Of a stretch of 64,000 nt of DNA, positions 11,756 through 59,117 are shown piece by piece. The stretch is from a virus. The translations under genes were made by a program, and so were the position numbers. The DNA is taken from positions 62,001-126,000 of the IMG/VR virus record IMGVR_UViG_3300035698_017305; one strand, written 5' to 3'. Below the pieces are notes generated by a model. That model ran no database searches, was not told the origin of the DNA, and worked only from the letters and a program-made list of their open reading frames with translations. Within the stretch, counting starts at the first letter, position 1, and the number at the start of each line of letters is the position of its first letter.

Positions 11756-11989
11756 ATGATTTCCACCGACGCTTTTTTACAAGAGACTGACCGAATCAAT
11801 GGTCACACTAAGACAGCGGTAGGCATGCTACCAGCGTTGGGGCTAATGGGTATGGGCGGAGCCGGACTGTTTGGCACGATGAATGCCGTGGACAGTTACC
11901 GTATAGGTAGGGCCCGCAAAGAGATGCTTAGAGCCCAGCAACAGATGCAGAAGCAGCAACAAACGGCCCAGATGTATAGTGGGGTATAA
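11756..11989 (+). CDS. small protein with shared N-terminal motif and hydrophobic segment (77 aa)
   Basis: Begins MISTDAFLQETDRINGHTK, carrying the F-L-x-E-x-D-x-I motif shared with the genes at 11991, 14502, 14936 and 58356. Residues 24-46 (GMLPALGLMGMGGAGLFGTM) form a Gly/Met-rich hydrophobic segment that could be a membrane helix. A Gln-rich amphipathic tail follows. AAGGAG lies six bases before the ATG, so it begins a new translational unit after the hub gene. Likely a minor virion or membrane-active peptide; function unknown. Confidence 0.65.
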   Translation: MISTDAFLQETDRINGHTKTAVGMLPALGLMGMGGAGLFGTMNAVDSYRIGRARKEMLRAQQQMQKQQQTAQMYSGV

Positions 11990-11990
11990 C

Positions 11991-12197
11991 ATGAATGATT
12001 ACTTTTTAGATGAGCATGATCGGATCAGAGGGATACCAAAGGAGGCCCAGGACATGGGTATGGGCAGTGTCGGCCCTAGCCCTCTAGCTTCCATAGCACG
12101 TCAACAAAATACTGGTGCGGCTAAGATGCCAGCTAAGGTAAAGCCGTTGGCACAAGGCACCCCCGGGGCTAACCTTCGTATGACCAAGTTGATGTAA
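11991..12197 (+). CDS. small protein with shared N-terminal motif (68 aa)
   Basis: Begins MNDYFLDEHDRIRGIPKEAQ, again with the F-L-x-E-x-D-x-I...K-E-A motif. The remainder is Pro/Ala/Met-rich with no membrane segment, so the motif is attached to unlike bodies. The ATG at 11991 comes one base after the previous stop; a GTG four codons earlier lies inside the previous gene and is less likely. It is directly followed by the sigma-like factor. Function unknown. Confidence 0.65.
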   Translation: MNDYFLDEHDRIRGIPKEAQDMGMGSVGPSPLASIARQQNTGAAKMPAKVKPLAQGTPGANLRMTKLM

Positions 12198-12971
12198 ATG
12201 ACCCCAGCCACTTTTAATACTGCGGATGTAGACGCTTTCTTGGTTAAGATAGGAGCTAAGAAGGAGACGTCACAGGAACGTCAACAAGCAGACATTAAGG
12301 CGTGGGAAGAATGGAATGCCAGTGATAGAGACCCAGCTCTAGTGACCCCGTTGTTCAAAAGATTCCAGGGGTTCATCGAGAGTGAGGCAAGGAAGATGTC
12401 CAACGTTGAGATGCCTAAGAACGCTATCCGTTCTGAATTCAACAACATGTTTATGACTGCTATCAAGACCTACAAACCAGACAAGGGAGCTGCTCTAGGT
12501 ACTTGGATAGGCAACCAACTGCGAGGAGCTGGCCGGTATGTCCGGACTTACCAGAACCCTGGACGCATTGTTGAAGCTAGGCACAGACACATCACTGACT
12601 TCCAAGTAGCCCGTAGAGATTTAGAAGAACAGTACGGCAGGCCCGCCTCGGGTTTAGAACTGGCTGACAAGCTAAGCATACCCGTAAAGGAAGTGGAGAG
12701 ACTGTCTAGGGAGCTGTCCCGTAAGAGCCTACCTATGAGTGGGTTTGAGGGTGAGATGTTCTCTAGGACACCCAGCAAAGAGGCTGAGAGTCTACGAATG
12801 ATGATGCATGAACTGCACGGAGAAGAGCAGGTAGTCATGGAGCATCTGTTGGGTGCTAACGGAAAAGAAAGGCTCGACCCCATAGCTATTGCTGGCAAAA
12901 TGGGGGTGTCTCCTGCTAAGGTATATAGAATCAAGAAGAGACTGGTTGAAAAGGTCAGGGATTATATCTAA
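12198..12971 (+). CDS. sigma-70 family RNA polymerase sigma factor
   Basis: Likely directs RNA polymerase to phage promoters. Residues 40-115 match sigma region 2 in pattern: a helix bundle ending in GTWIGNQLRGAGRYVRTY, equivalent to the -10 binding helix. Residues 130-170 resemble region 3 (LEEQYGRPASGLELADKLSI). The end is a region 4 helix-turn-helix (IAIAGKMGVSPAKVYRIKKR) for -35 recognition. At 257 residues it is close to alternative sigmas of the FliA/SigB type. No region 1.1 is present. It lies among virion genes, starts directly after the previous stop (TAAATG), and overlaps the next gene by TAATG. It may serve the phage RNA polymerase or redirect the host enzyme. Confidence 0.8.
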   Translation: MTPATFNTADVDAFLVKIGAKKETSQERQQADIKAWEEWNASDRDPALVTPLFKRFQGFIESEARKMSNVEMPKNAIRSEFNNMFMTAIKTYKPDKGAALGTWIGNQLRGAGRYVRTYQNPGRIVEARHRHITDFQVARRDLEEQYGRPASGLELADKLSIPVKEVERLSRELSRKSLPMSGFEGEMFSRTPSKEAESLRMMMHELHGEEQVVMEHLLGANGKERLDPIAIAGKMGVSPAKVYRIKKRLVEKVRDYI

Positions 12972-13165
12972 TGGCCACCAGTCTTAAAGAACAGCAGATA
13001 GATTCTCTGGTCAGTACGGCCAAAGAATACATAGCCAAAGAGAGGACTAGGTTGGAGGATGAAGCTATCTTTTTGAAGGCTATTAAGAAAGGCTCTGGGC
13101 AATTGGAGGAGATCCTAGTTGATCTAGCCCAGATTGAAGTGAACCAATTTTTAGGAGAGTCCTAA
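12971..13165 (+). CDS. hypothetical helical protein (64 aa)
   Basis: Small, highly charged, predicted all-helical protein without known motif. It is joined to the sigma gene and the next gene by one-base TAATG overlaps, suggesting a linked role, perhaps as a sigma partner or a virion component. That is only a guess from the context. Confidence 0.6.
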   Translation: MATSLKEQQIDSLVSTAKEYIAKERTRLEDEAIFLKAIKKGSGQLEEILVDLAQIEVNQFLGES

Positions 13166-13503
13166 TGGAATCAACGTCCGTGTCTGACACAATTGAACTG
13201 ACAGAAACAGAAGCCCTCAAGGTAGAGAACTACAACCTCAAGCGAGAGAGTCTAGGCACCCGCTTGAAAGACCTTCAAGCCAAGTACCAGAAGGATGTGA
13301 AGATGATCCAGGAAGCTGCTAGTCAAATAGCAACTGAAGAATCTGCCTTCATTGATGGTCTGAACGACAAGTACGGGGTTGAACTTCGACACTACAAACT
13401 GGAGGGGACCATGGCCGTGAAGGTTATGACTCCACCAATACAGGCGGCGGCAGCAAATGAAGCCAAAGATAATAAAGGTAACCCGGATCAAGCCGATCAT
13501 TAG
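13165..13503 (+). CDS. hypothetical coiled-coil protein (112 aa)
   Basis: Residues 12-65 form a charged heptad-like helix (LTETEALKVENYNLKRES and onward) typical of a coiled coil. The C-terminal part is a short beta segment and a Lys/Asn-rich tail. No catalytic or binding motif was recognised. It follows by TAATG overlap and is 32 bases from the next gene. Likely an oligomeric accessory or virion protein. Confidence 0.6.
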   Translation: MESTSVSDTIELTETEALKVENYNLKRESLGTRLKDLQAKYQKDVKMIQEAASQIATEESAFIDGLNDKYGVELRHYKLEGTMAVKVMTPPIQAAAANEAKDNKGNPDQADH

Positions 13504-13535
13504 GCGGATAAGAGACTGGGGGAAAGCGCAAGGCA

Positions 13536-14492
13536 ATGAGCCAAACATCCGTTCAGATAGACGTGGTGATTCCAGATACGATGAGTTTCGCCCGAAGTTT
13601 TAATCGACTCAGGGTATTCATCCAGGACGGTCCCGAAGGGGACATAGAAGAAATCACTGCTGAGGATGAAGAGAAGGCTGCACTTACTGGTGTGGTCAGT
13701 GGCCCGTGGGATCTAGAAGACCTGGATCTCCACTTGGTTATTGATGGCATCCCATACGTTGTGCCCTTCCAAGCTCCATTCCCAGTGTCATTGGGAAGAG
13801 CCATTGAGCGGGTCAATGCCGTGTGCCAATCTGAACTAGCCTCCCCTGCGGGTGGAGGTATAAAACTAGAATCAGTAATCTCTGGGAGAGAGTCGTATAT
13901 TGACGTTGGTGGCCCAGCCTCCGAAGTCCTAGGTTTCATTGATGAAACTGAGGCTAGAGGTAAGGCTAGACGGATGCACACCTGTGGGGACACAGCTACT
14001 TATACTTTTGTGGATACGCAAGGGGACACTGAGTGGCTGTACTACACAGACCTGTACAATTCTGAGACAGGCGCTTCCAGTGAGATGTCTGACCCCCAAG
14101 CTATTGATTATGAAGGACTAACTCTCCCTGACTCTGTGTTAACTACCTGTAAAATACGTTTAATTAACAAAAGTGGCGGGTACATCCAGGGTCAGGGAGT
14201 TCGTTTTCATGTTGCATCAGTACCTTACCGTATAGAGATACCCGACTCTTTAGATGAAGCATTTATCATGGACCATGTTCCGTCTGTGGTATACACAAAT
14301 GCTTACGGGTATGCGACAATACAACTAGTTAGGGGCGCTACGTATGATGTTGTCTTTGAAGGGACAGGATTCACTCGTAAGATAGTAGCCCCCGATTCAA
14401 GTGAGTTTGATGTGTTGAACCTCCTGACCGAGGAGGATGACCGTTTTGATATAGTAGTACCAGAAATAAACTTGCTCATCAGGAGATCATAG
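13536..14492 (+). CDS. beta-sandwich tail/decoration protein (318 aa)
   Basis: Beta-rich protein with two parts. Residues 1-150 are unknown. Residues 195-310 resemble a carboxypeptidase-regulatory-like or Ig-like sandwich (CKIRLINKSGGYIQGQGVRF, then VVYTNAYGYATIQLVRGATY), common in phage adhesins. The same style appears in the gene at 15772. It probably forms part of the tail tip or a surface decoration. It has its own ATG 33 bases after the upstream stop. Identification by fold pattern only. Confidence 0.55.
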   Translation: MSQTSVQIDVVIPDTMSFARSFNRLRVFIQDGPEGDIEEITAEDEEKAALTGVVSGPWDLEDLDLHLVIDGIPYVVPFQAPFPVSLGRAIERVNAVCQSELASPAGGGIKLESVISGRESYIDVGGPASEVLGFIDETEARGKARRMHTCGDTATYTFVDTQGDTEWLYYTDLYNSETGASSEMSDPQAIDYEGLTLPDSVLTTCKIRLINKSGGYIQGQGVRFHVASVPYRIEIPDSLDEAFIMDHVPSVVYTNAYGYATIQLVRGATYDVVFEGTGFTRKIVAPDSSEFDVLNLLTEEDDRFDIVVPEINLLIRRS

Positions 14493-14501
14493 GAGAACTC
14501 A

Positions 14502-14960
14502 ATGAACACCTTCTTTGAAGAAACAGACGCCATCCGTAAAGAAGCCGGTGCCGGTAGACTTGCGGGTATGCTGGGTAACAAAGCTGTCCGTTATGGAGGC
14601 GGCGCTATGCTTGGGGCAGGAGCTCTAGCTGGAGCGGCTAAGGGCGGACATGAACTGGGACAGGATCGTTATACCCCAGAAGCATTACAGATGTCTATGG
14701 GTGACCAGAATATGGGTACCTACGTGGCACCGAGCAAGACCGTTGACGAGTTCAAGGGCATCCTGGGAGAGCAGGGACCCGAAGCTGCTATGCAGTGGGC
14801 TCAGCAACAACCTAACTCTGGATACTTCGTGAATCCACAGCTAGTAGCTAGCGCCGTAGCCCAAGCCATTCAAGGCGGCGGTCAAGGGGGCGGAGGTGCC
14901 CCTAAGATGGCATCATTCAGGGGGCAGGCAGTTCCATCCGTCCCTTTCTCTCGGAGATAG
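14502..14960 (+). CDS. Gly/Ala-rich protein with shared N-terminal motif (152 aa)
   Basis: Begins MNTFFEETDAIRKEAGAG, a clear copy of the shared motif. Residues 25-50 form a Gly/Ala hydrophobic segment (GGGAMLGAGALAGAAKGG). The C-terminal end is Gly/Gln-rich. AGGAGA precedes the ATG. Near its end the sequence contains the heptamer CCCTTTC placed as C CCT TTC in frame. A -1 slip there would fuse the protein to the next reading frame, which has no normal start codon. The normal stop is at 14958-14960. Role unknown; probably a virion or membrane-interacting protein. Confidence 0.65.
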   Translation: MNTFFEETDAIRKEAGAGRLAGMLGNKAVRYGGGAMLGAGALAGAAKGGHELGQDRYTPEALQMSMGDQNMGTYVAPSKTVDEFKGILGEQGPEAAMQWAQQQPNSGYFVNPQLVASAVAQAIQGGGQGGGGAPKMASFRGQAVPSVPFSRR

Positions 14961-15772
14961 ATGCTGTTGGCCTGACTAAGCAAGCTGGGCCATGGCTTCA
15001 AGGGCTTGGGCAGTTATCTGCTAAGGCCGAAGGTGCGTTTGGTGGAGCCCTTAAAAAGGGCTGGGGCCGCGTCTCTGGAGCTGTTAAAGGGGAGGTAAGT
15101 AACCTAAAGGGAGCTCCCGGTGCCGTTAAAGAATGGGCTGTTGGTGCAAATCCTTTAGGTAGCAGAGCCAAATCTGTACCTCAGGGCATGGGCAAAGGCT
15201 CCTTTAACATGAGTCCTCAAGTTCGCCAAGGGTATGATAAGTTCCAGAAACCTATGGGTAATATGGCACCGTCTGCTAAAGCCCCTGTAGGAAATATAAA
15301 GAACAACGTCGGTCAAATGCGTAGGTCCGGTTACAATGCTGCCGGTGGGGTAGAGGCCGGAGGTGGTGGTGGGCAAGGTGTTTACAGCAGGTTAGCCGCA
15401 AGCACAGGTCCTAGGCCATCAGGACAAAAGATGCAGGCAGCCAACACAGCCATACAAGACACTGCTCAGCATGAACAGATGAGTGCGGGTAGGAACTGGT
15501 TAAAGAAGACACTGGATGGAATCGGAGGCGGTAAGTTTGACGTCGATGGGTTGGTATCTGGAGCGAAGAAGTATGGCCCCGGAGTACTAGCTGGTCTAGG
15601 CGGGACAGCCGCACTCGGTGCAGGGGTGTATGGTGCAGCCAAACACTTGGCACCAAAACTAGTCGGGCATGGTGTTAAGGGCTTTGTAAAACAGAACCCG
15701 TGGGTAATACCCGCCGCTGTAGGTGCCCCACTAGCCGCTGGTATGGCTGGCGGCGCTATGACGGGGAACTAA
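14936..15772 (+). CDS. Gly/Ala-rich protein with shared motif and no canonical start (about 278 aa)
   Basis: The frame is open from 14906 to the stop at 15772, but the first ATG is at 15188; no ATG, GTG or TTG lies before it. The upstream residues look genuinely coding and include FLSEIDAVGLTKQAG, the shared motif. Reading from ATC at 14936 gives (I/M)RPFLSEID, aligning with MNTFFEETD of the previous gene, and AGGGGGC lies about ten bases upstream. The alternative is a -1 frameshift at CCCTTTC (14942-14948) from the previous gene. The C-terminal third has Gly/Ala hydrophobic helices (GVLAGLGGTAALGAGVYGAA). If neither holds, the product begins at 15188. Confidence 0.55.
   Translation: MRPFLSEIDAVGLTKQAGPWLQGLGQLSAKAEGAFGGALKKGWGRVSGAVKGEVSNLKGAPGAVKEWAVGANPLGSRAKSVPQGMGKGSFNMSPQVRQGYDKFQKPMGNMAPSAKAPVGNIKNNVGQMRRSGYNAAGGVEAGGGGGQGVYSRLAASTGPRPSGQKMQAANTAIQDTAQHEQMSAGRNWLKKTLDGIGGGKFDVDGLVSGAKKYGPGVLAGLGGTAALGAGVYGAAKHLAPKLVGHGVKGFVKQNPWVIPAAVGAPLAAGMAGGAMTGN
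14942..14948 (+). other. possible -1 frameshift heptamer CCCTTTC
   Basis: The bases fit the X XXY YYZ slip pattern in the frame of the 14502 gene (C CCT TTC), twelve bases before its stop. A -1 slip enters the frame that runs to 15772 and begins L-S-E-I-D. C/T heptamers are not among the best-known bacterial slip sites and no pseudoknot was checked, so this competes with an ATC start. Confidence 0.3.
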
Positions 15773-16698
15773 TGGCCCTTGAACTGATCACAGTAATAGT
15801 AAGCGATGATTCCGTACCTTCTCAATTAGTTGAGGGGGTTACTGTTCGTTTGTACCCTGAGGGTGAATACACCCACGTCCAAGAGCAAGAGACGGACGAC
15901 GAAGGGGAAGCCACCATGCTGATTGATGTGGAAGAACCATCTCAGCGATTTGAAGTGCGCTTCTACAAAAGGCAGACTCGATTTCCCACTAACACATTCA
16001 TAGAGGTGGAGAGTCCAGCAGAGGACACCCAAGTATTCGACGTTACGGCAACAGTGCAAGATCGTCCTGTCTCTACCGACCCAAACCTCTGTCGGTGTTA
16101 TGGGTACGCGTCGTCATTGAACACTGCCGGGTTACCACTGGAGACATCAGTAATATGGTTGTCCCCATACGATGAAACATTCGTAGGTCATGGCTTGTTT
16201 GTGGCAGGGAAAGCGCAAGTAAAAGTCGTCGGTACAGATGGGTTATTCTGGATTGATCTGGTAAGGGAACAGACCTACATTGCAGAGGTCCTCGGGATGT
16301 GTAATGTCTTAGAGTTCACTGTACCCGACAGATCATGGGCGGACTTCAGCGATTTGTTATTCATATACGTAGCTACATTGACACTAACACCGGATGACGA
16401 TTCAGTATCCTTAGAGCAAGGCACTGAAACAGAGTTGGACTTGTCCGTAATCCTGTCTAACACTCAAGAGCTAACCGATTACGACGCAAGGAATTGGCTC
16501 ACGATAGAGAGCAGTGATGTGTCGGTCGCTTCCATCAGATGGGAACTAAGTTCCAGGAAGCTGACCATACGAGGGGTAGCCACTGGGTCCACCACTATAA
16601 CTATAGATGCGGATCCGGATTACTCTCTCCCACGGGTGCCTCCTAAGGTGGTGGACCCTGTGACCATTACTGTAACGGTTGTGAGCGATGGAAGTTAA
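15772..16698 (+). CDS. multi-domain beta-sandwich tail protein with BIG_2-like end (308 aa)
   Basis: Residues 1-100 resemble a carboxypeptidase-regulatory-like sandwich. Residues 215-308 have the pattern of a bacterial Ig-like (BIG_2) domain: LTLTPDDDSVSLEQGTETEL, then SSDVSVASI and GVATGSTTITI. Such domains are frequent in phage tail and adhesin proteins. The ATG at 15772 overlaps the previous stop (TAATG). An upstream GTG at 15700 would lie inside the preceding gene and is rejected. Likely exposed on the tail or baseplate. Confidence 0.6.
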   Translation: MALELITVIVSDDSVPSQLVEGVTVRLYPEGEYTHVQEQETDDEGEATMLIDVEEPSQRFEVRFYKRQTRFPTNTFIEVESPAEDTQVFDVTATVQDRPVSTDPNLCRCYGYASSLNTAGLPLETSVIWLSPYDETFVGHGLFVAGKAQVKVVGTDGLFWIDLVREQTYIAEVLGMCNVLEFTVPDRSWADFSDLLFIYVATLTLTPDDDSVSLEQGTETELDLSVILSNTQELTDYDARNWLTIESSDVSVASIRWELSSRKLTIRGVATGSTTITIDADPDYSLPRVPPKVVDPVTITVTVVSDGS

Positions 16699-17943
16699 AT
16701 GGAAAATGAGCTTAGGTCTTCAGTACAAGACTTGCTCGGTCGTGTTTCTTTCCCAGATGAATTCACCCGGCTGAGAGACACCGCTGCGCTAACGCTATAC
16801 CTGTCTCCAGCATCCTTCCCTTCTGTGTCTACAATGATACGCAACGAGGCCCTCCTGTACATGGGTGCCGCCGCCGATGCAGGGTTGTCTATAATACTAG
16901 CTCTGAAAGACTCCTGGAGACCAGAGGAAGGGTATACCAATGGGGTCGCCCCGTTAGAGAAGGCGGCTCAGGACATGAAGGTAGCGGCCCGGGCCCCATC
17001 AGGGGTTAAGAGCTCACAGATAGGGTCCTTTGTTAACAAGATTGAGAAGTTCGAAACAGGTATCAAGTCATCTGTAAGGGCGGGGGCTTCAGGAAAGACC
17101 GGCATGGATGCCAGTACCTACATAGATGAACAGTACATTCTCTTCACCGATAACTTGGTTAAGGGGGTGGCTTCTTGTTGGGGGTTGGTCGGAGCTTCAA
17201 CATCCTATCTATCATTCTTACCAACGGATTTATCCAATAGGATTATGGAAGCCGCAGGTGACATGATAGGAGAGCTTGCGGAGTACCTGTCTGAGGGGGG
17301 CGGACGAGGTGAACAGTACTCGGTACTAGCTCTGACCTCTACTATAAAGGCAGTGGTTAAAGCTACTGACTCAGAAGTGGAGGTGGACGTACCAGACTCT
17401 CACGCTGAAGCTATACAGACACTAGCCATTCTACTTAAGGAAGTAGATAAGTCATTTGGTACTATAGATTCTGACTTTTTCAGAGGGGTGTTGTCATCAT
17501 CCTTGACATCTTCAGTTCAGTCTAAAGAGAAGGCCAGGGAGATGTCTAAGAGACTCATGCGATTCTTAGTCTTCGTGACCGATGACATCAGTGATGAGGT
17601 GTTGAGGTGGGTAGGTCCTACCTCTAGCCAAGACCCCACGGTCCTGGGAGTGTTAGAAGGGTACTCTGTCACTACCAGTGATGATTCTAACCAAGTAGTG
17701 TTAGGTATCATTGATAGATTAGAGGACAGAGGGTACGATAGAGCTGCGGATTCTCTAAGGTCAGGGGACATAGAGGTCTTTGCAACAATGACTGAGGAGG
17801 AAGCTTCCTATGCTGGGGCTGCTACTGAAAGCCTGCGTAGGATCTCCCTATTCCAGAATAACAACAACGATATAGATTGGGTTGGTAAAGAGGAGCTGCT
17901 AAGCAGGACATTTCGCGGTGGGCTCCCATCATTGGAGGAATAA
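16699..17943 (+). CDS. hypothetical helical virion-module protein (414 aa)
   Basis: Predicted almost wholly alpha-helical and soluble, with many Ser/Leu/Glu residues and no recognisable catalytic motif. It follows the previous stop directly (TAAATG) and shares a TAATG overlap with the next gene, so it is co-translated within the tail operon. No family could be named. A structural or assembly role is inferred only from position. Confidence 0.65.
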   Translation: MENELRSSVQDLLGRVSFPDEFTRLRDTAALTLYLSPASFPSVSTMIRNEALLYMGAAADAGLSIILALKDSWRPEEGYTNGVAPLEKAAQDMKVAARAPSGVKSSQIGSFVNKIEKFETGIKSSVRAGASGKTGMDASTYIDEQYILFTDNLVKGVASCWGLVGASTSYLSFLPTDLSNRIMEAAGDMIGELAEYLSEGGGRGEQYSVLALTSTIKAVVKATDSEVEVDVPDSHAEAIQTLAILLKEVDKSFGTIDSDFFRGVLSSSLTSSVQSKEKAREMSKRLMRFLVFVTDDISDEVLRWVGPTSSQDPTVLGVLEGYSVTTSDDSNQVVLGIIDRLEDRGYDRAADSLRSGDIEVFATMTEEEASYAGAATESLRRISLFQNNNNDIDWVGKEELLSRTFRGGLPSLEE

Positions 17944-18961: not shown

Positions 18962-18970
18962 GGTGGGTTA

Positions 18971-24932: not shown

Positions 24933-24948
24933 GGACACAGGATAAACA

Positions 24949-27201: not shown

Positions 27202-27202
27202 G

Positions 27203-43532: not shown

Positions 43533-43535
43533 TGG

Positions 43536-45121: not shown

Positions 45122-47019
45122 TACTTTGCCTCCGCCCAACTGATGCCATGACTAGGCTCAGCCTCTAAGGGTACGCTGAGGGGCCGGTCAAACAGGTCTT
45201 CTTCCATTAACTCTTGGACCCTGTTCCTGGCCAAACGGATAGTTTCCTCATTATCGTCCACTTCAAACATGAGCTCATCATGTACCTGTAACAGCATGAT
45301 AGCGCCTAGATCAGCCAGTATCGGATCATGGGCACAAGCCAGCATTGCTAACTTGGCTATGTCAGCAGCAGAACCTTGGACAACGCTGTTAACCGCTTGT
45401 CTCTCCGCTCTGGCAGCAATACCATGGTTGGAGTCGTTGATGTCCCTGAGTCTCCGATACCTGCCCAGTACGGTTTTGACATACTCATACTTTCTACACT
45501 TCCGTCTGGTTGCGAAGATGTATTTGTGAACGCCAGGGTAGGATCTGAAGTACTTGGCAGTCAGCTCTTTAGCCTCCCCCATTGTGACTTCCCTACCCAA
45601 GTCGTCAGTGAGCTGCTCACCAAGGTGGCGGGGGCCGATCCCGTAGATAAGACCGAAGCCGATAGCCTTGGCAGCTTGCCTCATATCCGTGATCTCTTTA
45701 TTGTAAGGCTCACCGGACTTCTTCTTTTTGACCTCAGCTACAACTGCATCGTAAGGCATGCCCATCATCAGAGAAACTGTGGTGCAGTGGAGGTCGTCAC
45801 CCCGTTCAATAGCACCTATCATAGCGGCATCTCCGGACATGTGAGCCATAATCCTCATCTCAAGCTGAGAGTAGTCACACACAATCAGAACCTTACCTGG
45901 AGGGGCCATAAACGCGTCACGCAGGTGATACACGTCTGAGGCTGTCCTAGGTATGTTTTGGAGATTAGGGTCCGTAGAGGACAACCTACCCGTCACTGTC
46001 CCTGTTTGCTTGAGAGTGGTGTGGATTCTACCGTCAGAACCCAACCTGTCTATGATGCCATTGACGTAGGTGTTGAGAACCTTGGCTAGCGCCCTATGCT
46101 TCAATATCAGTGTGGCGAACTTGTCCCCACCCGATGCCCATATCGTTAGGTTAGCCTCATCTGTGGATAACTTCTGGGTTTTCCCAGTACGCCTCCCAGG
46201 GAGACCGCGCTCATCAAAGAACTTGGATAGCTGCACTGAGGATTTGAGATTGAACACCTCTCCAGCCTCTTGGTTGAACATAGCTTCGATATCTTCGATG
46301 TCAGCCATCAGCCTTGGCCGAAGGAAGCGGAGGTAGGCTACGTCTATCCAGATACCCTTACGTTCCATGTCCCATAGGACTTTGGTGAAGGGTACTTCCA
46401 TGTCTAAGTAGTATTCCCACCCATTGGTATTACCGATCTTTATATTGTAGAGTTTGTCCCCAAGTAGCTTCCATAGTGCGTAGGTTGCTGCGGTGTCTGT
46501 AGTGGCGTACATAAGTACTGTCTCTCTTGACGCAGATAACAGTACGGCAGCTTCGGTTTCACCCTTTTTCTTCTTTCTACCATCCCTGTAGAAGGTCGCC
46601 TTGAACGATTCCATAGGGTAGTCGAAATGGAGGAAGGCTAGGTCTTTCAGACCATGGGGCCTGTTCTCGTCTAGCAGCCAATCCATAACCATAGTGTCAT
46701 GCACATCTCCTTGGACCGTTACCCCGGAGTTAGCAAACATGTGCATGTCAAACTTGGCATTGTGCATAATCTTGATTTGATTTGGATCTTCCAATGCTGG
46801 CCTAAAGATGTAAAGAAGCTCTCTAGGTATGCACAGAGAAAAGTCCTCCGTTGTTAGGGACCACAGAACTATCTCATCGGTGGTTGTGTTGATCCCAGTT
46901 GTTTCTGTATCGTAGGCTACATATTTGTAATTGGCTAACTTCTGTAGCCATTGAGTAGCTTCCTCAGCCGTCTCCACGTACCACGCCTCTGGGGCGTCTG
47001 GAAGAGTTAGAGCTGCCAT
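45121..47019 (-). CDS. family A DNA polymerase
   Basis: Main replicative polymerase candidate. A 3'-5' exonuclease domain begins with YDTETTG (D37) and continues to about residue 190. The polymerase core has motif A DYSQLEMRIMAH (about 380), motif B RQAAKAIGFGLIYGIG (about 446; Phe at the 762-equivalent position, as in E. coli Pol I), and motif C QVHDELMFEV (about 583). There is no 5'-3' exonuclease domain, as in T7-like polymerases. Length 632 is typical. It overlaps the upstream gene by 56 bases and HU by TAATG. Confidence 0.92.
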   Translation of the reverse strand: MAALTLPDAPEAWYVETAEEATQWLQKLANYKYVAYDTETTGINTTTDEIVLWSLTTEDFSLCIPRELLYIFRPALEDPNQIKIMHNAKFDMHMFANSGVTVQGDVHDTMVMDWLLDENRPHGLKDLAFLHFDYPMESFKATFYRDGRKKKKGETEAAVLLSASRETVLMYATTDTAATYALWKLLGDKLYNIKIGNTNGWEYYLDMEVPFTKVLWDMERKGIWIDVAYLRFLRPRLMADIEDIEAMFNQEAGEVFNLKSSVQLSKFFDERGLPGRRTGKTQKLSTDEANLTIWASGGDKFATLILKHRALAKVLNTYVNGIIDRLGSDGRIHTTLKQTGTVTGRLSSTDPNLQNIPRTASDVYHLRDAFMAPPGKVLIVCDYSQLEMRIMAHMSGDAAMIGAIERGDDLHCTTVSLMMGMPYDAVVAEVKKKKSGEPYNKEITDMRQAAKAIGFGLIYGIGPRHLGEQLTDDLGREVTMGEAKELTAKYFRSYPGVHKYIFATRRKCRKYEYVKTVLGRYRRLRDINDSNHGIAARAERQAVNSVVQGSAADIAKLAMLACAHDPILADLGAIMLLQVHDELMFEVDDNEETIRLARNRVQELMEEDLFDRPLSVPLEAEPSHGISWAEAK

Positions 47020-47827
47020 GTATTGTCCTCACTGCCAAGTAGGAGAGTCGGCGTTTGGCCAGTTCTTTCTCTCCGTTGGTGGTGCCCTCCGCTAGGATTA
47101 GTGCGGTAGGGCCGTTAGATGACCCTCCCGCCATGATTAGGCTTGGGTGCACGTTCATAACACCGCAAACCGTTTTAGCGGATACAGGAGCTTCTAGCAG
47201 CAACTCCTTACCCCGCAGTTTTTCGATGTCAAGATCCTCCTCCGGTTCATGCATTCGAACCGGGAATATCAGACCAAATACATATGACCCTGTGACGTAA
47301 CACCCTCTCTTACTAGGGTTCTTACCGGGCCCTAGAACTTTAGCGTCTAAGCTGTGAGCCAGCTTTAGGTAACCTGGGTTAACCGCGATAAACCGTTGTG
47401 GATTCAGTGGGAACAAGTACACGGTTTCATCCCCAGGACGTATAGACCGCATATACTTCTCAGAGTAGTACATGTCCAGTAGGTTCTTGCCTCTTATGGT
47501 GGGACCTTCGTGATGGCTATCGAACAACCATGTCAGGAAGGAGTTCGAAGCCACGTTCTCAGGAGCAGGTACATCCCCCACTACGTGTTCTTGCTTTACT
47601 TTCTTAGAGTACAAAGCTTCCCAGCTAATGCCTTTACCCGTGTCTTCATACAACGTCGATAGCTTGGCAAAGTTCTGTCCTAGTACCGGATGATCTTTAC
47701 CATCGTCAGACACTATGACAAAGTGGCCATTAGTAAGGGCTACCCGACCCCCACTGTAAAACAGTTCAGGAGCCGGGGTTAGCCCGGTAATGACTTTCTG
47801 GAAGCTAGGAGTTCCTACTTGCTCCAT
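46964..47827 (-). CDS. hypothetical protein, possible clamp-like factor (287 aa)
   Basis: No clear family. Residues 135-200 contain NPQRFIAVNPGYLKLAHSLD and FGLIFPVRMHEPEED, faintly like the last domain of sliding clamps (NPRYLLDAL, then YVIMPMRL). Position next to the polymerase fits a processivity factor. The resemblance is weak, and an unrelated structural protein cannot be excluded. The last 56 bases overlap the polymerase start, and that tail is Ser/Arg-rich. Confidence 0.5.
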   Translation of the reverse strand: MEQVGTPSFQKVITGLTPAPELFYSGGRVALTNGHFVIVSDDGKDHPVLGQNFAKLSTLYEDTGKGISWEALYSKKVKQEHVVGDVPAPENVASNSFLTWLFDSHHEGPTIRGKNLLDMYYSEKYMRSIRPGDETVYLFPLNPQRFIAVNPGYLKLAHSLDAKVLGPGKNPSKRGCYVTGSYVFGLIFPVRMHEPEEDLDIEKLRGKELLLEAPVSAKTVCGVMNVHPSLIMAGGSSNGPTALILAEGTTNGEKELAKRRLSYLAVRTIHGSSNSSRRPRGVVRGDG

Positions 47828-51459: not shown

Positions 51460-51491
51460 ATTTTACTCCTTTCATACAATCGAGGGAGTAC

Positions 51492-51520
51492 AAGCTACAG
51501 GTTATGGCGGGTTTAGTCAA
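51492..51520 (-). promoter_or_regulatory. possible leftward sigma-70-like promoter before the helicase gene
   Basis: On the minus strand TTGACT (51520-51515), a 17-base spacer and TAGCTT (51497-51492) precede the helicase ATG by about 30 bases, in the only sizeable gap (121 bases) of the replication operon. The -10 box matches three of six bases, so support is weak. It could boost helicase, primase and polymerase. Confidence 0.3.
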
Positions 51521-51580
51521 GACAATAAATCTCCGCTCAAAAAGTCTGTATATGTACTATTTTGTTGTCTCATGTTGGTA

Positions 51581-52771: not shown

Positions 52772-52775
52772 GTCG

Positions 52776-53525
52776 TTACTCCTTTGGGGGCGGCCCCAGC
52801 CTCAGGGGGATGTCTATACCGAACTCCCTCTCGTTGATCATATCTACTGCCCGCATAGCTTGGTATATATCTCGATAAGACCACTTCCACTCAGGGGCAG
52901 AGTCGGGTATCTTCAACAGGAAGGCCGGGTGGTAGGTGGTAAACACCGGGTAATGAACGTAAGGCAGTATGTCTGGGTTGGTTGAGGTTATAGACGCATC
53001 ATGTGGACGCCGCCGTAACTCTGATACCGGTTTACGCTTCTTAGTTAAGGCCGTAGCAGGTAAAGCCCCAAGGGATAGTATGACCATGGGGTCTACCTTC
53101 CGTATTTCATATTCCAGCCTCTTCATGCAGGCTTTTATATGTCGGGCTTGGGGGTTGGTCGGTTTACCTTGTGCGTCGGAAGGCGGTCTGCACAGCACCG
53201 CATTTGTGATATAGATAGATTCTTTCCAGCACAGGATATCCCGTATCTCGTCAGGATCTTCATAATCTATACTTTGGTCTTTGCGGTATATAGCTAGCTC
53301 AGAGCAGGCAGAGGCCATGACCAATAGGTTTGTTAGAACTTTTCCCGACATCCCCACAAATGGTCTACCTAGCCTATTCTCATCTGACCCTGGGGCTTCC
53401 CCGATGATCATGATGTTAGCGTTGGGGTCCCCTTCCCCCAAGGCCATTCTTTTCCTGTCATCACACAAGTCACACTGTTGGCACTCCACGTAGTCAGGGT
53501 GGAGAAATCGGGTTAGTTCTTCCAT
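52776..53525 (-). CDS. Fe-S type uracil-DNA glycosylase (family 4-like)
   Basis: Removes uracil from DNA. GEAPGSDENRLGRPFVG (from residue 42) is the family 4 catalytic and uracil-binding segment. N-terminal Cys residues (C15, C18, C21) and two further Cys near residues 90-115 may hold a 4Fe-4S cluster. TTYHPAFLL near 205 is the second active-site motif. The 249-residue length is typical. It sits in the replication operon, so it may protect phage DNA or take part in a base-turnover pathway. Confidence 0.85.
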   Translation of the reverse strand: MEELTRFLHPDYVECQQCDLCDDRKRMALGEGDPNANIMIIGEAPGSDENRLGRPFVGMSGKVLTNLLVMASACSELAIYRKDQSIDYEDPDEIRDILCWKESIYITNAVLCRPPSDAQGKPTNPQARHIKACMKRLEYEIRKVDPMVILSLGALPATALTKKRKPVSELRRRPHDASITSTNPDILPYVHYPVFTTYHPAFLLKIPDSAPEWKWSYRDIYQAMRAVDMINEREFGIDIPLRLGPPPKE

Positions 53526-53535
53526 AGGCTACCTC

Positions 53536-53901
53536 TTAGCTTACCGTATTGGGGTCCACAAGACCTATTTGGTCTACTCGTGCACTTGTCTCGTCAGCGA
53601 TGCACTTCTTCAGTAAGGCCGCGATGTTGTCATAGCTGGATTTGGGTAGGTCTAGGCAATGACATACCATCTTGACGTTGTAGAACCACATGTCGGGCGG
53701 TTCAAGCATCCCCGGGACGAACGTTATCACTTGGGATATAGCCACTCCTTGTGGGGTGGGCATGGTCATTGAGATGATGGACCGTACTCCACACATCTCG
53801 AATTTCTCTGGTACGTTCTCCCCAGTCCTGTTTATGATCTCACCAATCATCAGGCTCTTTCCGTCTGGGCTCACAATAGACAGTTTATCTAAGTCAATCA
53901 C
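53536..53901 (-). CDS. hypothetical protein (121 aa)
   Basis: Unrecognised alpha/beta protein with a Met/Pro-rich central part. The start is GTG at 53901, with GAGG about ten bases upstream. It is between helicase and glycosylase genes. No motif gives a function. Confidence 0.55.
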   Translation of the reverse strand: MIDLDKLSIVSPDGKSLMIGEIINRTGENVPEKFEMCGVRSIISMTMPTPQGVAISQVITFVPGMLEPPDMWFYNVKMVCHCLDLPKSSYDNIAALLKKCIADETSARVDQIGLVDPNTVS

Positions 53902-53931
53902 GTTATCAATCCTCTTCGTTGGTGATCCGCC

Positions 53932-55323
53932 TTATGCCGGATTGTAGTTTATAGTCTCAAAGGGTATTTGGCGTATCTTCAGGTTCTCCTTCAGCTCCCT
54001 TATCATCTTCTTACAGTGCTCAATGTTCTGGTCTACAAACACTATGATTAGGGGCTGTTTCTTCCCCTCATCGGGCCGTAGTATCCTTCCCATCGTCTGA
54101 GCCAAGGCTGTGTCGTTGCCAAATGGAGTTAAAACAAATAGTGTGTCTAGCGTGGAGGAGTCAAGTCCCCTCATGCCTATCTTGAGCGTGCTCAGTACCA
54201 CCTGAGACTGCCCAAATATACGTAACCGCTCTTCTCCTTTGACTTCTTGAACTACAACACCCGCCTCGGGTATTCTCTTCTTCAACTCGAACAGTTGGTC
54301 ACGGCTATGGCTGATCCCTAGAACTCTCCTACCAGCCCCAACAGCTTCCTTTATACTGGAGGCTATCAGGTCATTCCTCTCTGGGTGCCTTCCTATCCAA
54401 CCTCGTAACTTGCCGGTACTGGTGCTTCCATTACAGTCCTTCGTGAGTTTCTCGTCGGTGCTCCCACGTAGCCGTACATTAGTTTCTTGGAAGTACACCA
54501 CAGGTTTCAGGTCGTACCCCACGTTGGTGTAGAAAGCTCTGCCTAGGTGGTACAGGAATATGCTCTCTAGCCCGTCTTCCCTTTTGACCGTGGCGGTCAG
54601 TCCCCACCTTCTGCCAGATCCCACATCAGCGGTTAGGCTGAACATGGGGGCAGACAGTATATCCGCTTCATCATATATTACAACTCCGTATTTTCTACCA
54701 AACCCTGGGGGTATCCGATTCTCTCTCACTCTCCGGAAGAGGGTGTGGATGGAAGCTATTACTATCGGCTTATCCCAATCGAATGTATCCCCTTGTATCC
54801 AACCAATTTCCCCATCAAACTTTACGAACCTTTCTATTTCTCTCTTCCACTGGCTCATCAACCCTTTTTGATCTAACACAATCATCCATGGTGCCCCCAC
54901 CGCACAGGCTGCCCTGATTGATGTTGGGGTCTTACCCTTCCCACAGCCCATTTCAAGTATCCCTGACCTAGCACGCTTAGTGGCTTCATATGCCTCTTGG
55001 TGGTGGGGGAACTTGGGGTGTGGACCAATATTGCACTCAAACCGTACTCGTTCAAACTCTGTACTCACCGCTTGGTAGAAAGGAAACTTATACCTTCCAT
55101 AGTCTCCCCTCGGTATAAACTCCCTGGGTACGACAAAGTGATGTGGTGTCTCTTTCCACAGCCTTAGAGGTACTTCAGGATCATCTGAAGGGAACGTCAA
55201 CGCTTTTTCGATGATGGGTTTTGGGACTCTTGCTTTCGGCAACCATAGGTTTCTGTCAACATAAGCAGCTTCTGGGCGTCTCCGCACCAGATCTACCACT
55301 CCACTTCTCTCATGAATCTGCAT
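53932..55323 (-). CDS. SF2 DNA helicase (XPB/UvsW-like)
   Basis: Translocates on or unwinds DNA. Walker A is GCGKGKT (126-132), the DEAD box is VIYDEADIL, motif III-like GLTATVKREDG follows, and motif VI is QTMGRILRP. An unusual N-terminal 120 residues precede the motor. The order and spacing resemble XPB/RAD25 and T4 UvsW-like helicases. Length 463 fits. The start overlaps the 111-residue gene by 31 bases. Likely acts on replication forks or recombination intermediates. Confidence 0.85.
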   Translation of the reverse strand: MQIHERSGVVDLVRRRPEAAYVDRNLWLPKARVPKPIIEKALTFPSDDPEVPLRLWKETPHHFVVPREFIPRGDYGRYKFPFYQAVSTEFERVRFECNIGPHPKFPHHQEAYEATKRARSGILEMGCGKGKTPTSIRAACAVGAPWMIVLDQKGLMSQWKREIERFVKFDGEIGWIQGDTFDWDKPIVIASIHTLFRRVRENRIPPGFGRKYGVVIYDEADILSAPMFSLTADVGSGRRWGLTATVKREDGLESIFLYHLGRAFYTNVGYDLKPVVYFQETNVRLRGSTDEKLTKDCNGSTSTGKLRGWIGRHPERNDLIASSIKEAVGAGRRVLGISHSRDQLFELKKRIPEAGVVVQEVKGEERLRIFGQSQVVLSTLKIGMRGLDSSTLDTLFVLTPFGNDTALAQTMGRILRPDEGKKQPLIIVFVDQNIEHCKKMIRELKENLKIRQIPFETINYNPA

Positions 55324-55628
55324 AGTTCCACCGTTACCGCTTCACCCATAGCCAAGCTGATGTTCTTAGCGAGTCGGGTTGTTTGGGTTTCCCCTTCACT
55401 GGGTTGGATTGGCCTGTTAGTAGATGGGCCCATACTACCACGAACTGGGGAGGTTACAGAGGAAGAAGTCGTTGATTTTCGCCTAGATGTAGGGTTTGGG
55501 GTTGAGTACCCTTGTGACGACCTTCTGACCATTTCGTCGTAACAAGAGCGTCTGTGGGGACATGCCGTACACTCTGGAGTACCGCCTTCGTACTCAGTGC
55601 CCCAGCAATCCGGCCTGAATCCTGACAT
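55293..55628 (-). CDS. Cys-rich protein (111 aa)
   Basis: The first 30 residues contain CWGTEYEGGTPECTACPHRR followed by SC, a four-Cys pattern that could hold zinc or Fe-S. The middle is Ser/Thr/Pro-rich and probably disordered; the end is a helix. AAGGAG lies upstream of the ATG. It opens the leftward replication operon and so may be expressed early. Function unknown. Confidence 0.6.
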   Translation of the reverse strand: MSGFRPDCWGTEYEGGTPECTACPHRRSCYDEMVRRSSQGYSTPNPTSRRKSTTSSSVTSPVRGSMGPSTNRPIQPSEGETQTTRLAKNISLAMGEAVTVELCRFMREVEW

Positions 55629-55653
55629 GTTATAATCTCCTTCTAAGATAATT

Positions 55654-55674
55654 GGTTTCCTTATAGCGGAAACC
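55654..55674. repeat. inverted repeat in a divergent promoter region
   Basis: GGTTTCC (55654-55660), a seven-base loop TTATAGC, then GGAAACC (55668-55674): a perfect seven-base-pair inverted repeat between the leftward replication operon and the rightward head module. Its loop reads GCTATAA on the minus strand, so it overlaps a possible leftward -10. It may be an operator. Confidence 0.35.
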
Positions 55675-55689
55675 CACTGGCCTTTTCGC

Positions 55690-55719
55690 TTGACTGTACG
55701 GGTATAGGAACGGTAGACT
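55690..55719 (+). promoter_or_regulatory. possible rightward sigma-70-like promoter
   Basis: TTGACT (55690-55695), an 18-base spacer and TAGACT (55714-55719) precede the head-module gene at 55763 by 44 bases. It shares the TTGAC box and 18-base spacing with the promoters at 2073 and 61848. The -10 is weak. Confidence 0.35.
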
Positions 55720-55762
55720 CAAAGCTGCGAATGCCTCAAATATAAAGGGAAAGGAGTCCTTG

Positions 55763-57433
55763 ATGGACCTATATGATGACTACTCTGGAAGCGAGCTTCG
55801 GGACATGTTCTCCGGGCCGGATGATATCCCCGAATTCGTAAAGCAAGGATCGGTTCTTTCTTCACAAGAATTGACCCATCTCCCCAACGAAGATTTTGCA
55901 CTAATCACTGTAGATGAAGCCCGTGCCAAGGTTATGCGTAAGTTTGCCTGTACGGACCCAGCTACCACTGCGCTCCAAACCCTATACTTCATGAGAAACA
56001 AGGAAGGGTTATCCAAGGAGGCGCAATCCATAGCTGCGGCCAACCTAGTCAGGCTTTGTGGTAAGCATGGACTGGATGTGCCAGAGGATCTCGTGAAGGT
56101 AGCGTACACCGCACCTCTTGAGCAGATCTGGAATCCAGAACTACTACAAGACCCTCAGATTCAGCAAGCCCTCATGGAAGGTCTCATGGGTATGGCCAAA
56201 TCCCTGGGTAAGAAAGACCCATCCGAAATCGCGCCCCCAGAGCATGAGGCATTTATGGGGTCGCCGAAAGCTCATGAGACCATCTTTAAGGCCCTCCCCC
56301 GTCTGTTTGGAACGCCCGAAGAACAGGCGGAAGCCCAGGGACAAGGCCAGCAACAGGCGGGAATGGGATCCGGGGGTGCTGCTCAAGGCGGTGCTCCCGC
56401 CCCAGCTTCCCCTCCTGGACAAGAACAAGGTGGAGGTGCTCCCCCGGCTATGGGTGGAGGTGCCCCAGGAGGTATGCCAGCGGGTGGTGGAGGTGCTCCG
56501 CCCCCAGCAGGTCCAATGAGTATGAGCCCAGGGCCTACTAAGCTTTCCTCACTCCAACAGGTGTTGGCACAGGAGTTCCTAGTGAAGACCGCTGGGGAAG
56601 AAGGCCCGGCAAAAACCAGTACCTCTGTAGTAGAGAAGGTGTTGGCAGAGATAAGTACTAAGAGAGGGAAGAAAGTCCAACCTGAAAATCTAAAGCCTGA
56701 GGAGAACAAGATCAAGGTCTTGGACAGGCAGAGTAACATTTTGGTTGTTGGCCCACCGAAGCAGCTTCCTGAACCAGAAGAAAAACGAAAGGTGGCTGCT
56801 GAGCATATACTATTGGGTAGATACCCTGTAGAGACATATGCTGACCTGGAAAAGGCCGCCAGCTACTTTGAAGAGTACTGGGACAAGTTCTCACCTTCAG
56901 ACCGACGTTCCTACGCTCAGGGACTGGTAAAAAGGGCCAGTGCGTTGCTAAGGCCGATTAGCACACCACTTACCTTAAAGTACGCGTCTGTTGATTGGGA
57001 CCCCGACTTCCCCATGGCTATTGACCAAAGAAAGTCATGGCTGGGCGAAGGAGAATTCGAAAGATACGACACTTTGATCAAGGAAGCCTATGCTGGCGAT
57101 GTCTCACCAGATGAGTTTGCCGGTTTCTTAGGACAACTTGATGAAGATACCGGATTGGACCGATTGTGGGACTCCAAGATCTACGACCCCGTAGCTTCTA
57201 CTGTAGGTTTCGACAAGACGGCAGAGGAAACGTGGAGTTACACAATGGGCAATGACTATATCAATGCCGATCAACTGCATGGGTTGGCGGTGGCTGATAA
57301 CAGGGAGGCTCTGCTCAAATTGTTTCCTGAGTCGGTTGTAGACGGGTTTATCAAATCACCTACTAAAGCCTTCGATACTTTCCCAGCGGATGTGAAGAGG
57401 GTATTCATGAGAATGGCAAGTGAGCGTGGTTAA
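55763..57433 (+). CDS. virion-module protein with Gly/Ala/Pro linker (556 aa)
   Basis: N-terminal helical domain (1-190), a long low-complexity Gly/Ala/Pro/Gln linker (about 193-265), and a helical C-terminal domain. No family recognised. The ATG at 55763 has AAGGAG six bases upstream; a TTG codon just before it is rejected. It begins the rightward module that ends in the portal. A scaffold, head-associated or internal protein is plausible but unproven. TAATG joins it to the next gene. Confidence 0.6.
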   Translation: MDLYDDYSGSELRDMFSGPDDIPEFVKQGSVLSSQELTHLPNEDFALITVDEARAKVMRKFACTDPATTALQTLYFMRNKEGLSKEAQSIAAANLVRLCGKHGLDVPEDLVKVAYTAPLEQIWNPELLQDPQIQQALMEGLMGMAKSLGKKDPSEIAPPEHEAFMGSPKAHETIFKALPRLFGTPEEQAEAQGQGQQQAGMGSGGAAQGGAPAPASPPGQEQGGGAPPAMGGGAPGGMPAGGGGAPPPAGPMSMSPGPTKLSSLQQVLAQEFLVKTAGEEGPAKTSTSVVEKVLAEISTKRGKKVQPENLKPEENKIKVLDRQSNILVVGPPKQLPEPEEKRKVAAEHILLGRYPVETYADLEKAASYFEEYWDKFSPSDRRSYAQGLVKRASALLRPISTPLTLKYASVDWDPDFPMAIDQRKSWLGEGEFERYDTLIKEAYAGDVSPDEFAGFLGQLDEDTGLDRLWDSKIYDPVASTVGFDKTAEETWSYTMGNDYINADQLHGLAVADNREALLKLFPESVVDGFIKSPTKAFDTFPADVKRVFMRMASERG

Positions 57434-58359
57434 TGCCAGAACCACAACAGATCCAGGAACTTCTCCAGGAGATTGAGGGAGGGGACATTCTACATGCCCC
57501 TTCGGAAGAAACCATCATAGACCTGGAGACAGCTAAGGGTGCACCCATAACGGTCAAGAATCTATTTGACCATCATGATGCACATCCTATAGCTTTGTAC
57601 ATTCTGACCAGCATTAAGTTTGGGGCAGACTGGGTAAACTGGCCTGCTAAGGTAGTGTTCTCTGAGATACAGCGTGTGTTTAGGCGTACTGTGTCACGGA
57701 ATAACCGGGAAAAGCTCAATGCTATTAGAGTGTTACACTCCACTAAGGACTTCTGGCAAGAGTGGGAAGTCTTCTCTGCCATCACTCAAGCACTGAACAA
57801 TAACATCGTTAGCTTTAATGTGCTTACCCGCCCCACCATAGCTCAGATGATGAATGCAGTGGAGCAAGCAGGAAGCATCAAAAAGACGGAGTACGCCTCT
57901 GAGGTAGTAGACTTCATAGCTGCCGTATTTATTGACGAGCCTGTATTCTATGCCCCTGAACCCCTAGACTTCGTACAAAGAAGGATTGTGGAAGCGGTGG
58001 CTAAGGTAAAATGCGGTGATTGTGGTGCTAAGTTTGAACCTCACGGTATAGTTGAGGGCAGGTGCCCTATGTGTACCGGTGCTTTCAGGGATGAGAAGCC
58101 ACTAAACTTTAAACCTGATAAAGACGCACCAGACAATGTGGGACGCAACCTAACATTGGAGATGCCTTACCCCGTAGAGACGATTAAGGACAAGTACGAA
58201 ACGGTCAGTAAACAGGCTTCAAATGAGGCGGTGCTAGCCCCAGACAAGATAGAGGACATTCAATCGGCTAAGCTGCTGATTGCCAGGGACTACGTTAATC
58301 TCAGACGCGCCCAGCTCAACAGGCAAGTGCGCCTGATCAGGGAAGCTCACATAGCATGA
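57433..58359 (+). CDS. zinc-ribbon virion-module protein (308 aa)
   Basis: Residues about 193-220 contain CGDCGAKFEPHGIVEGRCPM with a second CxxC, a zinc ribbon. The N-terminal 190 residues are alpha/beta, and the end is helical. No family was named. It overlaps the previous gene by TAATG and the next by ATGA. It is in the head module next to the portal, which also holds a zinc ribbon, so both may contact the same partner or DNA. Confidence 0.6.
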   Translation: MPEPQQIQELLQEIEGGDILHAPSEETIIDLETAKGAPITVKNLFDHHDAHPIALYILTSIKFGADWVNWPAKVVFSEIQRVFRRTVSRNNREKLNAIRVLHSTKDFWQEWEVFSAITQALNNNIVSFNVLTRPTIAQMMNAVEQAGSIKKTEYASEVVDFIAAVFIDEPVFYAPEPLDFVQRRIVEAVAKVKCGDCGAKFEPHGIVEGRCPMCTGAFRDEKPLNFKPDKDAPDNVGRNLTLEMPYPVETIKDKYETVSKQASNEAVLAPDKIEDIQSAKLLIARDYVNLRRAQLNRQVRLIREAHIA

Positions 58360-59117
58360 ATGACACCGCCTCTTTTTTAGCAGAGCACGACTCCATAGCT
58401 AAGGAGGCCGGTGTGCTTACCTCTGGTATTAAGTTTATACCGAAGATAGTTAAGTATTTAGGCTTAACCGCTAAACAGACACTATCTACTTCCGGTAAGC
58501 TGCTTACATCCCCTAAGAAAACGGTGGGGGCAGGTTGGAAATCTATGAGCGGATCCCACCAGTACACCAAGAATTTAGAGGGGTTCGACTCTAGAATAGC
58601 TGAGATGGCTAGAGGGTCTGCCCGTAAGACTGAGGTTCTAAAGAAAAAGCAGTTCTTAGCTAAGTCTAAGCATATGAGCCAGAAGTCTAGGAGCCTTGGT
58701 GGTTCGTGGAATAAGGGGGGCTTTGATGGGTTAGCCAGTGAACTGTCCCGTAGGGGTTGGACTGGTAGCACCAAGAACACCAAGTTCATACCATGGGGTC
58801 AGAAATCATGGGTAGTGGGGTTTGCGCCTATGTCTGCCCAAACTGTAATGTCAGGGGATAAAGAGCTACCGAAGCACTTACGTAGAGGCCCACTTGAGAG
58901 GCTAGGGTCTGAAATTGGGAGTACCGCAGGATTTGTTGCTGGCTTCCCACTCAGTATAGGTGGTAGTATCGGGGCATCAATGGCAGCGGGAAAAGGGGCA
59001 GGGTCTGTGGGTAAGCTGGTTGATGAAGCTTTCGGAATGGGTAAGAAGCCTATGGAATACATGTCTGGTCCAAGACCACCTGCGGTGCCCAGGCCCCCAA
59101 CAACATATGGAATATAA
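58356..59117 (+). CDS. virion protein with shared N-terminal motif (253 aa)
   Basis: Begins MNDTASFLAEHDSIAKEAG, a strong copy of the F-L-x-E-x-D-x-I-x-K-E-A motif found in four genes of the tail operon 45 kb away. The middle is basic (KKKQFLAKSKHMSQKSRSLG), and a Gly/Ser/Ala hydrophobic patch lies near 195-220 (STAGFVAGFPLSIGGSIGAS). The gene sits immediately before the portal. A basic virion protein with an N-terminal tag fits an internal or ejected protein, but function is unknown. Confidence 0.65.
   Translation: MNDTASFLAEHDSIAKEAGVLTSGIKFIPKIVKYLGLTAKQTLSTSGKLLTSPKKTVGAGWKSMSGSHQYTKNLEGFDSRIAEMARGSARKTEVLKKKQFLAKSKHMSQKSRSLGGSWNKGGFDGLASELSRRGWTGSTKNTKFIPWGQKSWVVGFAPMSAQTVMSGDKELPKHLRRGPLERLGSEIGSTAGFVAGFPLSIGGSIGASMAAGKGAGSVGKLVDEAFGMGKKPMEYMSGPRPPAVPRPPTTYGI

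Follow-up and report, generated by a model that had tools for sequence, protein, structure and literature searches.

Five otherwise unlike proteins encoded in a 64,000-nucleotide stretch of viral DNA begin with a common short peptide, F-[LF]-x-E-x-D-x-[IV]-x(1-4)-K-x-A, which is likely an N-terminal capsid-targeting sequence, with head targeting as its probable functional class. The stretch (hereafter, the window) covers G000:62001-126000, with G000 denoting the whole contig, the 132,813-base IMG/VR record IMGVR_UViG_3300035698_017305. The peptide is N-terminal, is restricted to one phage clade, matches a segment of a core/scaffold-like protein encoded next to the head protease in relatives, and usually ends in an element, h-x-K-x-A, that is enriched in head proteins.

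Copies of the peptide in the contig

Each of the five peptides lies where the initial annotation had placed it, with its F at window 11774, 12003, 14511, 14945, and 58374. In a six-frame translation of the whole contig, the same regular expression matched exactly six times, i.e., at the five window copies and at FLREWDDIRKVA (G000:130117, outside the window), each time close to the beginning of an open frame, against no match in 40 codon-shuffled contigs and 0.0017 matches expected in the called proteome from amino-acid composition. Looser scans added MSNQPLFMDESEELFKEA at G000:131779, in a protein that starts at G000:131761 and begins LFMDESEELFKEA, and MYSFLHETDQIKLSG at G000:60759, where a protein starts with SFLHETDQIK, bringing the contig total to eight. 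The shared peptide is real and beyond chance.

All five window frames lie on the + strand. Tagged protein 1 (11756..11989, 77 aa), which has a strong Shine-Dalgarno-like sequence ahead of its ATG, carries FLQETDRINGHTKTA at 11774-11818, and tagged protein 2 (11991..12197, 68 aa from the ATG at 11991) carries FLDEHDRIRGIPKEA at 12003-12047. Tagged protein 3 (14502..14960, 152 aa, Gly/Ala-rich) has FFEETDAIRKEAG at 14511-14549, and tagged protein 5 (58356..59117, 253 aa), encoded immediately ahead of the portal gene, has FLAEHDSIAKEAG at 58374-58412; its orthologues in relatives G029 and G052 are also tagged. A low-confidence AlphaFold2 prediction of this last protein as a single sequence (predicted local distance difference test, pLDDT, 46) had short helices near the N-terminus and was not used as evidence. 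In the fourth frame (14936..15772) the motif is present (FLSEIDAVGLTKQAG at 14945-14989), but the start claimed for it is ATC, and no ATG, GTG, or TTG lies upstream of the motif. A C_CCT_TTC heptamer stands directly ahead of the motif and the frames overlap at window 14936-14960, so that an ATC start, a −1 slip at the heptamer, and a base error are alternatives; for the −1 frameshift, neither local nor downstream RNA structure was significant (z −1.1 and −0.4).

A clade-wide peptide family

Portal homologues 38-49% identical to that of the window phage (59121..61166, + strand, the clade marker) led to contigs with small head-region proteins starting SFFDELHNIEKEA, AFFDELGQIEKAG, GFSDELEKIA, AFVDELEKIA, and similar. 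Here the consensus is sharper, [AS]-F-x-D-E-L-x-K-I-A; the pattern first described holds exactly in its five proteins, but the window variant (F-L-x-E-x-D-x-I..K.A) represents one end of a family in which this second form is commoner. Searching the motif across the whole genome and its relatives, as the annotation had suggested, yielded a clade-wide family in addition to the six strict copies in the contig.

When 2.9 million viral contigs were scanned at the DNA level for exact matches to any coding of FxDE[LF]EKIA, 111 stretches were returned, and 83 copies were read from 80 loci. A start codon lay at most 20 residues upstream in 82 of the 83, and the in-frame stop was a median of 25 residues upstream. 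Since 65 distinct DNA spellings occurred over 82 copies, it is the peptide that is conserved, not a DNA element. By column, E is invariant (100%), followed by K and I (90% each), F (89%), D (85%), and L (83%), with A, S, or G at the first position in 95% and at the last in 86%. Among 48 peptide-bearing contigs, the fused RNA polymerase described below was encoded by 44, the portal of this phage by 44, and at least one of the two by 46, and thus a search with a short peptide alone retrieves one phage clade. With A or S required before the F, the scan of 257 Gb of cellular genomes gave nine stretches, mostly coincidental (PhoU-like or internal). No model in Pfam, PHROGs, or NCBIfam covers the tag, no family there matches more than two of 74 tagged proteins, and a text search of papers gave no match for the peptide.

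With a strict profile, which undercounts the divergent window phage, ten long genomes yielded 88 tagged frames (3-15 in each). The profile occurred within the first 60 residues of 44 of 2176 gene calls, versus none in residue-shuffled proteins (ten trials), 0 or 1 for permuted-column profiles, and 1 of 1458 C-termini; it was trained on the hits themselves, a concern answered by these shuffle, permuted-column, and C-terminal controls and by an independent core-protein profile (below). Tagged frames followed the portal strand in 84 of 88 cases, as compared with 1135 of 2036 genes (p = 5e-17). Of the apparent internal copies, most were located either in spurious frames, long and GC-rich, or next to a start codon that had not been assigned. 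A few look real, namely those in a ligase-like protein (G047:22505-23665) and in the helicases of G029 and G052; in all three proteins the tag stands 70-220 residues ahead of the C-terminus, possibly in fusions or polyproteins.

Unrelated bodies behind the tag

When the 74 tagged proteins were aligned, conservation extended only over MxxxxxxAFxDELEKIA, the tag being an extension of 12-25 residues on unrelated bodies, with some 7-15 such proteins in each genome, which bears out the earlier claim of unlike proteins behind a common N-terminus. Functionally, these bodies include SNF2/DEAD helicases (L052, L061), a sigma factor (G051), a NUDIX protein (L105), a GNAT plus glyoxalase-like protein (L080), permuted papain-like amidases (G044, G051), a Zn-peptidase (L082), and a protein with a DarB-like PHROG match, a cargo chemistry that fits injected proteins.

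After clustering of the bodies by homology, nearly every head-region family was found to retain the tag in almost all members, and most exceptions had a degenerate copy in the same place. Sigma and helicase are the real exceptions. Across 11 sigma factors the tag is strict in G051 and weaker in G006 and G009; the orthologues in G051 and G009 bear EFADELDKEA and EFATELDKEA, respectively, where the N-terminus of the window sigma (12198..12971, + strand, PHROG sigma match 4e-12) has DAFLVKIGAKKE. The helicase is tagged N-terminally in G008 and internally in G029 and G052, whereas the tag is absent from its homologues in Salmonella phage Arash and Pseudanabaena phage PA-SR01. As a separate observation, three PA-SR01 (MT234670) genes, at 4111, 23347, and 24377, encode hypothetical proteins that begin MKHFANF, MRKSANF, and MKHFANF; this other phage lineage perhaps has a common N-terminal peptide of its own, with no relation to the tag.

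The initial annotation had read the peptide as a sorting tag at the N-terminus, comparable to the T4 capsid-targeting sequence, and had looked to homologues without the motif and to cytoplasmic proteins as the places where this reading might fail. Retention of the tag across head-region families, the portal-strand bias, and the finding that no recognized replication protein is tagged all support it.

The tag matches a segment of a core/scaffold-like protein

In relatives, the gene between the head protease and capsid genes encodes an acidic core/scaffold-like protein with a conserved segment, GRxMAH-[AS]-[YMF]-V-[QN]-E-L-x-x-I-[EQ]-K-x-A-[GA], that aligns ungapped with the window tag form S-F-L-A-E-H-D-S-I-A-K-E-A-G. 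A profile was built from 11 such segments, all from other phages and none from the window phage, and scored against the 87,684 windows of the contig. The tag at 58374 ranked first, that at 14511 second, and that at G000:130114 fourth, with top scores of 21.6 and 16.8 against at most 15.4 for permuted columns. In G002, G007, and G009, portal- and polymerase-adjacent tagged proteins ranked next or first; in several of these genomes lower-ranked matches fell within the permuted-column range, and the strong evidence from this profile is that of the top matches in this contig and in G002. The simplest reading of these matches is that cargo and core protein may share one docking helix.

An h-x-K-x-A element enriched in head proteins

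The tag usually ends in h-x-K-x-A (LEKIA, IRKEA, IAKEA), an element over-represented only in head proteins: 13 were observed versus 2.5 expected in the portal module, against 7 versus 8.5 in tail genes, and it was not enriched in the RNA polymerase, in minus-strand genes, or in non-virion genes. The 131761 protein has four (0.3 expected), and a 556-aa head-module protein encoded two genes ahead of tagged protein 5 (55763..57433, + strand), with orthologues in the same place in relatives, has eight (0.8 expected) and is a candidate scaffold/core or processed head protein. The same head families are rich in the element in Arash, Vibrio phage D69, and the clade, e.g., Arash gp220 (9 versus 0.7), gp223 (8 versus 0.7), and gp222 (6 versus 0.8). 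Such a pattern is as expected of either a maturation-protease site or a repeated docking site.

Arash Gp222 and its clade homologues match the PHROG head maturation protease (5e-8 to 9e-6), and a model of this family (pLDDT 58, core about 75) matched viral prohead proteases in a fold search, although a fold search of the PDB gave no match. The K and A of K-x-A are invariant near the N-terminus of the family, and the phage G homologue, gp19, has seven h-x-K-x-A elements (0.7 expected). Its alignment (A3) also contains an invariant DxCxxC...YC after an SMG motif, suggestive of a small metal-binding insert.

From motif enrichment and analogy, we consider cleavage at K-x-A by the head protease, with removal of the tag, a little short of an even chance. 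A stronger version would make the motif mainly a substrate of this protease, i.e., a removable propeptide, with targeting encoded elsewhere in each protein. The enrichment of the usual tag end in head proteins and the invariant K and A in the protease family would suit such a propeptide, but the conserved F, D, E, L, and I reach well upstream of K-x-A (E is present in every copy, 100%, and F in 89%), the bodies have nothing else in common able to target them, and a cleavage site would not need the rest of the tag, since K-x-A alone recurs without it in other head proteins; we thus regard this version as unlikely.

The distribution of the element also bears on destination. The annotation had left head and tail open, and of these the head is favored, because h-x-K-x-A is enriched in head and not in tail proteins, because of the core-segment match, and because the helicase and sigma of Arash are virion proteins (below); the tail is not favored. 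Four of the five window copies do lie within the tail/baseplate gene region, as they might if the peptide sorted to a tail assembly intermediate or an intracellular compartment rather than to the head. This we hold to be very improbable, given the head-specific enrichment, the strand of the tagged genes, the lack of tagged replication proteins, and the other copies in relatives, which flank portal, polymerase, and major capsid genes.

Virion proteins of a cultured relative

The nearest cultured relative is phage Arash (portal 31% identical). Its virions were analyzed by proteomics, in which the RNA polymerase β subunit, Gp206, was the most detected protein (3516 spectra), alongside β′ Gp216 (1210), the major capsid protein (1333), the DNA helicase Gp217 (1148), and sigma Gp10 (467) (PMC10585845). 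According to the authors of that study, the presence of some enzymes could reflect lysate carry-over (PMC10585845), which the high spectral counts make less likely for Gp206 and Gp217. Both polymerase subunits are homologous to the fused polymerase of the window phage. Gp217 shares 38% identity with the L052 helicase, whose tag is an added stretch that precedes the part aligned with Gp217; between Gp10 and a tagged sigma orthologue, identity is 30%. Untagged Arash homologues of two tagged families are, by mass spectrometry, virion proteins. The strict tag itself was not found in Arash (about 122 of 181 kb) or D69 (41 kb).

These data also bear on whether the tag might be a docking peptide for the virion RNA polymerase, with tagged factors entering the virion by piggy-back only. 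The polymerase is encoded in nearly all tag-bearing contigs, sigma is tagged in G051 and G009, and a tagged gene directly follows the polymerase gene; however, the portal co-occurs equally often, the strict tag was not found in Arash or D69, both of which encode a homologous polymerase, the tag matches a conserved stretch of a protein encoded between the head protease and the major capsid protein, and papain-like amidases or NUDIX enzymes would hardly be expected to serve as polymerase factors. Docking of this kind appears improbable to us, marginally more so than the propeptide.

Proposed mechanism and its significance

We return to head targeting as the preferred role and posit the following course. 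The tag (A/S-F-x-D-E-L-x-K-I-A or, in the window phage, F-[LF]-x-E-x-D-x-I-x-K-x-A) would form a short amphipathic helix and engage in the contact also made by the matching segment of the core/scaffold-like protein encoded beside the protease, so that tagged proteins and core protein co-assemble within the forming prohead. The protease would then mature the head, perhaps cutting near or just after K-x-A and freeing the cargo of its tag, and the cargo would remain in the virion and be injected together with the phage DNA and virion RNA polymerase. The receptor of the tag is probably its own, distinct from that of T4.

Several points weigh against this course. The contig is a fragment lacking its own major capsid protein, protease, and core protein; several sigma orthologues have no recognizable tag, the RNA polymerase itself is untagged, and several tagged genes are located among tail genes. 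Arash and D69 have the virion RNA polymerase, the portal, and the protease in common with the clade and yet are without the strict tag, and thus helicase and sigma must enter their virions another way. Packaging in this clade is something we infer, and the cleavage step derives from motif enrichment and analogy, such that K-x-A could instead be a docking repeat.

More broadly, it seems to us evenly balanced whether this clade of uncultured phages (130-200 kb, with the virion RNA polymerase fused) uses a transferable address peptide that mimics part of its own head-core protein, with some 12 N-terminal codons making any gene an injected cargo, a head protease of new specificity (h-x-K-x-A), and a tag that predicts the injected repertoire. 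The proteins that a phage injects are as a rule identified only where a cultured phage is available for virion proteomics. In this case, a signature of ten residues supplies candidates for dozens of uncultured phages (helicases, sigma, NUDIX, acetyltransferase, papain-like proteins, and many unknowns), offering a new short candidate for the loading of proteins into phage heads. Because the tag resembles part of a head-core protein, it affords a clear test of cargo choice; if the proposal is true, the injected effector repertoire of each phage could be read from sequence alone.

Other features of the contig and clade

The fused β-β′ RNA polymerase gene (2058 aa, + strand), a homologue of the Arash virion RNA polymerase, lies next to the portal gene, starts near the end of the window (61915..64000), and continues to G000:130091, with Rpb2 domain 6 at residues 542-925 and Rpb1 domains at 1133-1851. 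Much enlarged open frames with broken matches were found for the portal in G020, G033, G036, and G049, for the RNA polymerase in G023, G030, and G046, and for the protease in L099 and G015:113234-118270, a pattern that inteins would give; it seems that inteins target several of the clade's head and transcription genes. Finally, G000:33586-34239 and 47014-47664 are paralogues with, by eye, a ThiF/E1-like N-terminus (VGGIGS and VGALGSN), homologous to the same gene in G029 and G047.

Comparison with known systems

Among known systems, the T4 internal head proteins IPI, IPII, IPIII, and Alt carry an N-terminal capsid-targeting sequence of 10-20 residues on unlike bodies, linked to the prohead core and maturation protease (PMC5694885). 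The peptide described here is likewise a short N-terminal stretch on several proteins with unrelated bodies, but it has another consensus and more numerous and varied cargo, including an SNF2 helicase and a sigma factor, with a probable K-x-A element in place of a T4-type site, an unrelated portal, and a virion RNA polymerase. T4-type prohead proteases remove such sequences at [IL]-x-E. Most window copies do contain L-x-E, but in relatives the residue ahead of x-E varies (L 17%, F 15%, A 13%), and removal at [IL]-x-E does not describe this family.

In giant phages, SPN3US has two paralogues with an identical 15-residue N-terminus, and the propeptides of phiKZ and SPN3US are mostly at least 100 residues and cut after A/S-x-E, with no short consensus on unrelated proteins described (PMC5694885). 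These phages resemble the clade in having a virion RNA polymerase and processed inner head proteins, the latter putative in the clade; the tags here are instead 12-25 residues, end in K-I-A or K-x-A, and lack the long A/S-x-E propeptide.

The nearest cultured relatives are Arash and Vibrio phages D69, D148, and D181, all with homologous portal and RNA polymerase. Arash also has homologous sigma, helicase, protease, and capsid proteins and head proteins rich in h-x-K-x-A, including gp223, encoded between protease and capsid, with tandem ELVKEAS-type copies; in Arash and D69, unlike here, the RNA polymerase is split into β and β′ genes.

In P1, an N-terminal signal, of which 30 residues are sufficient, brings the large helicase-type antirestriction protein DarB into the head (PMC9024508). 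An N-terminal signal, putative here, on a helicase-type protein is common to both systems, and one tagged protein is DarB-like by PHROG; the DarB N-terminus (MNKLSMGVFRCSSVSEILKYIRAI) is without this motif, and neither the portal nor the RNA polymerase showed any relationship to P1. We class the peptide as neither T4-type nor DarB-type, since the element conserved in it is not the T4-type site and the motif is missing from the start of DarB. By analogy, the best reading is that its action would parallel that of the capsid-targeting sequence in T4 and of the DarB signal in P1, with a sequence of its own.

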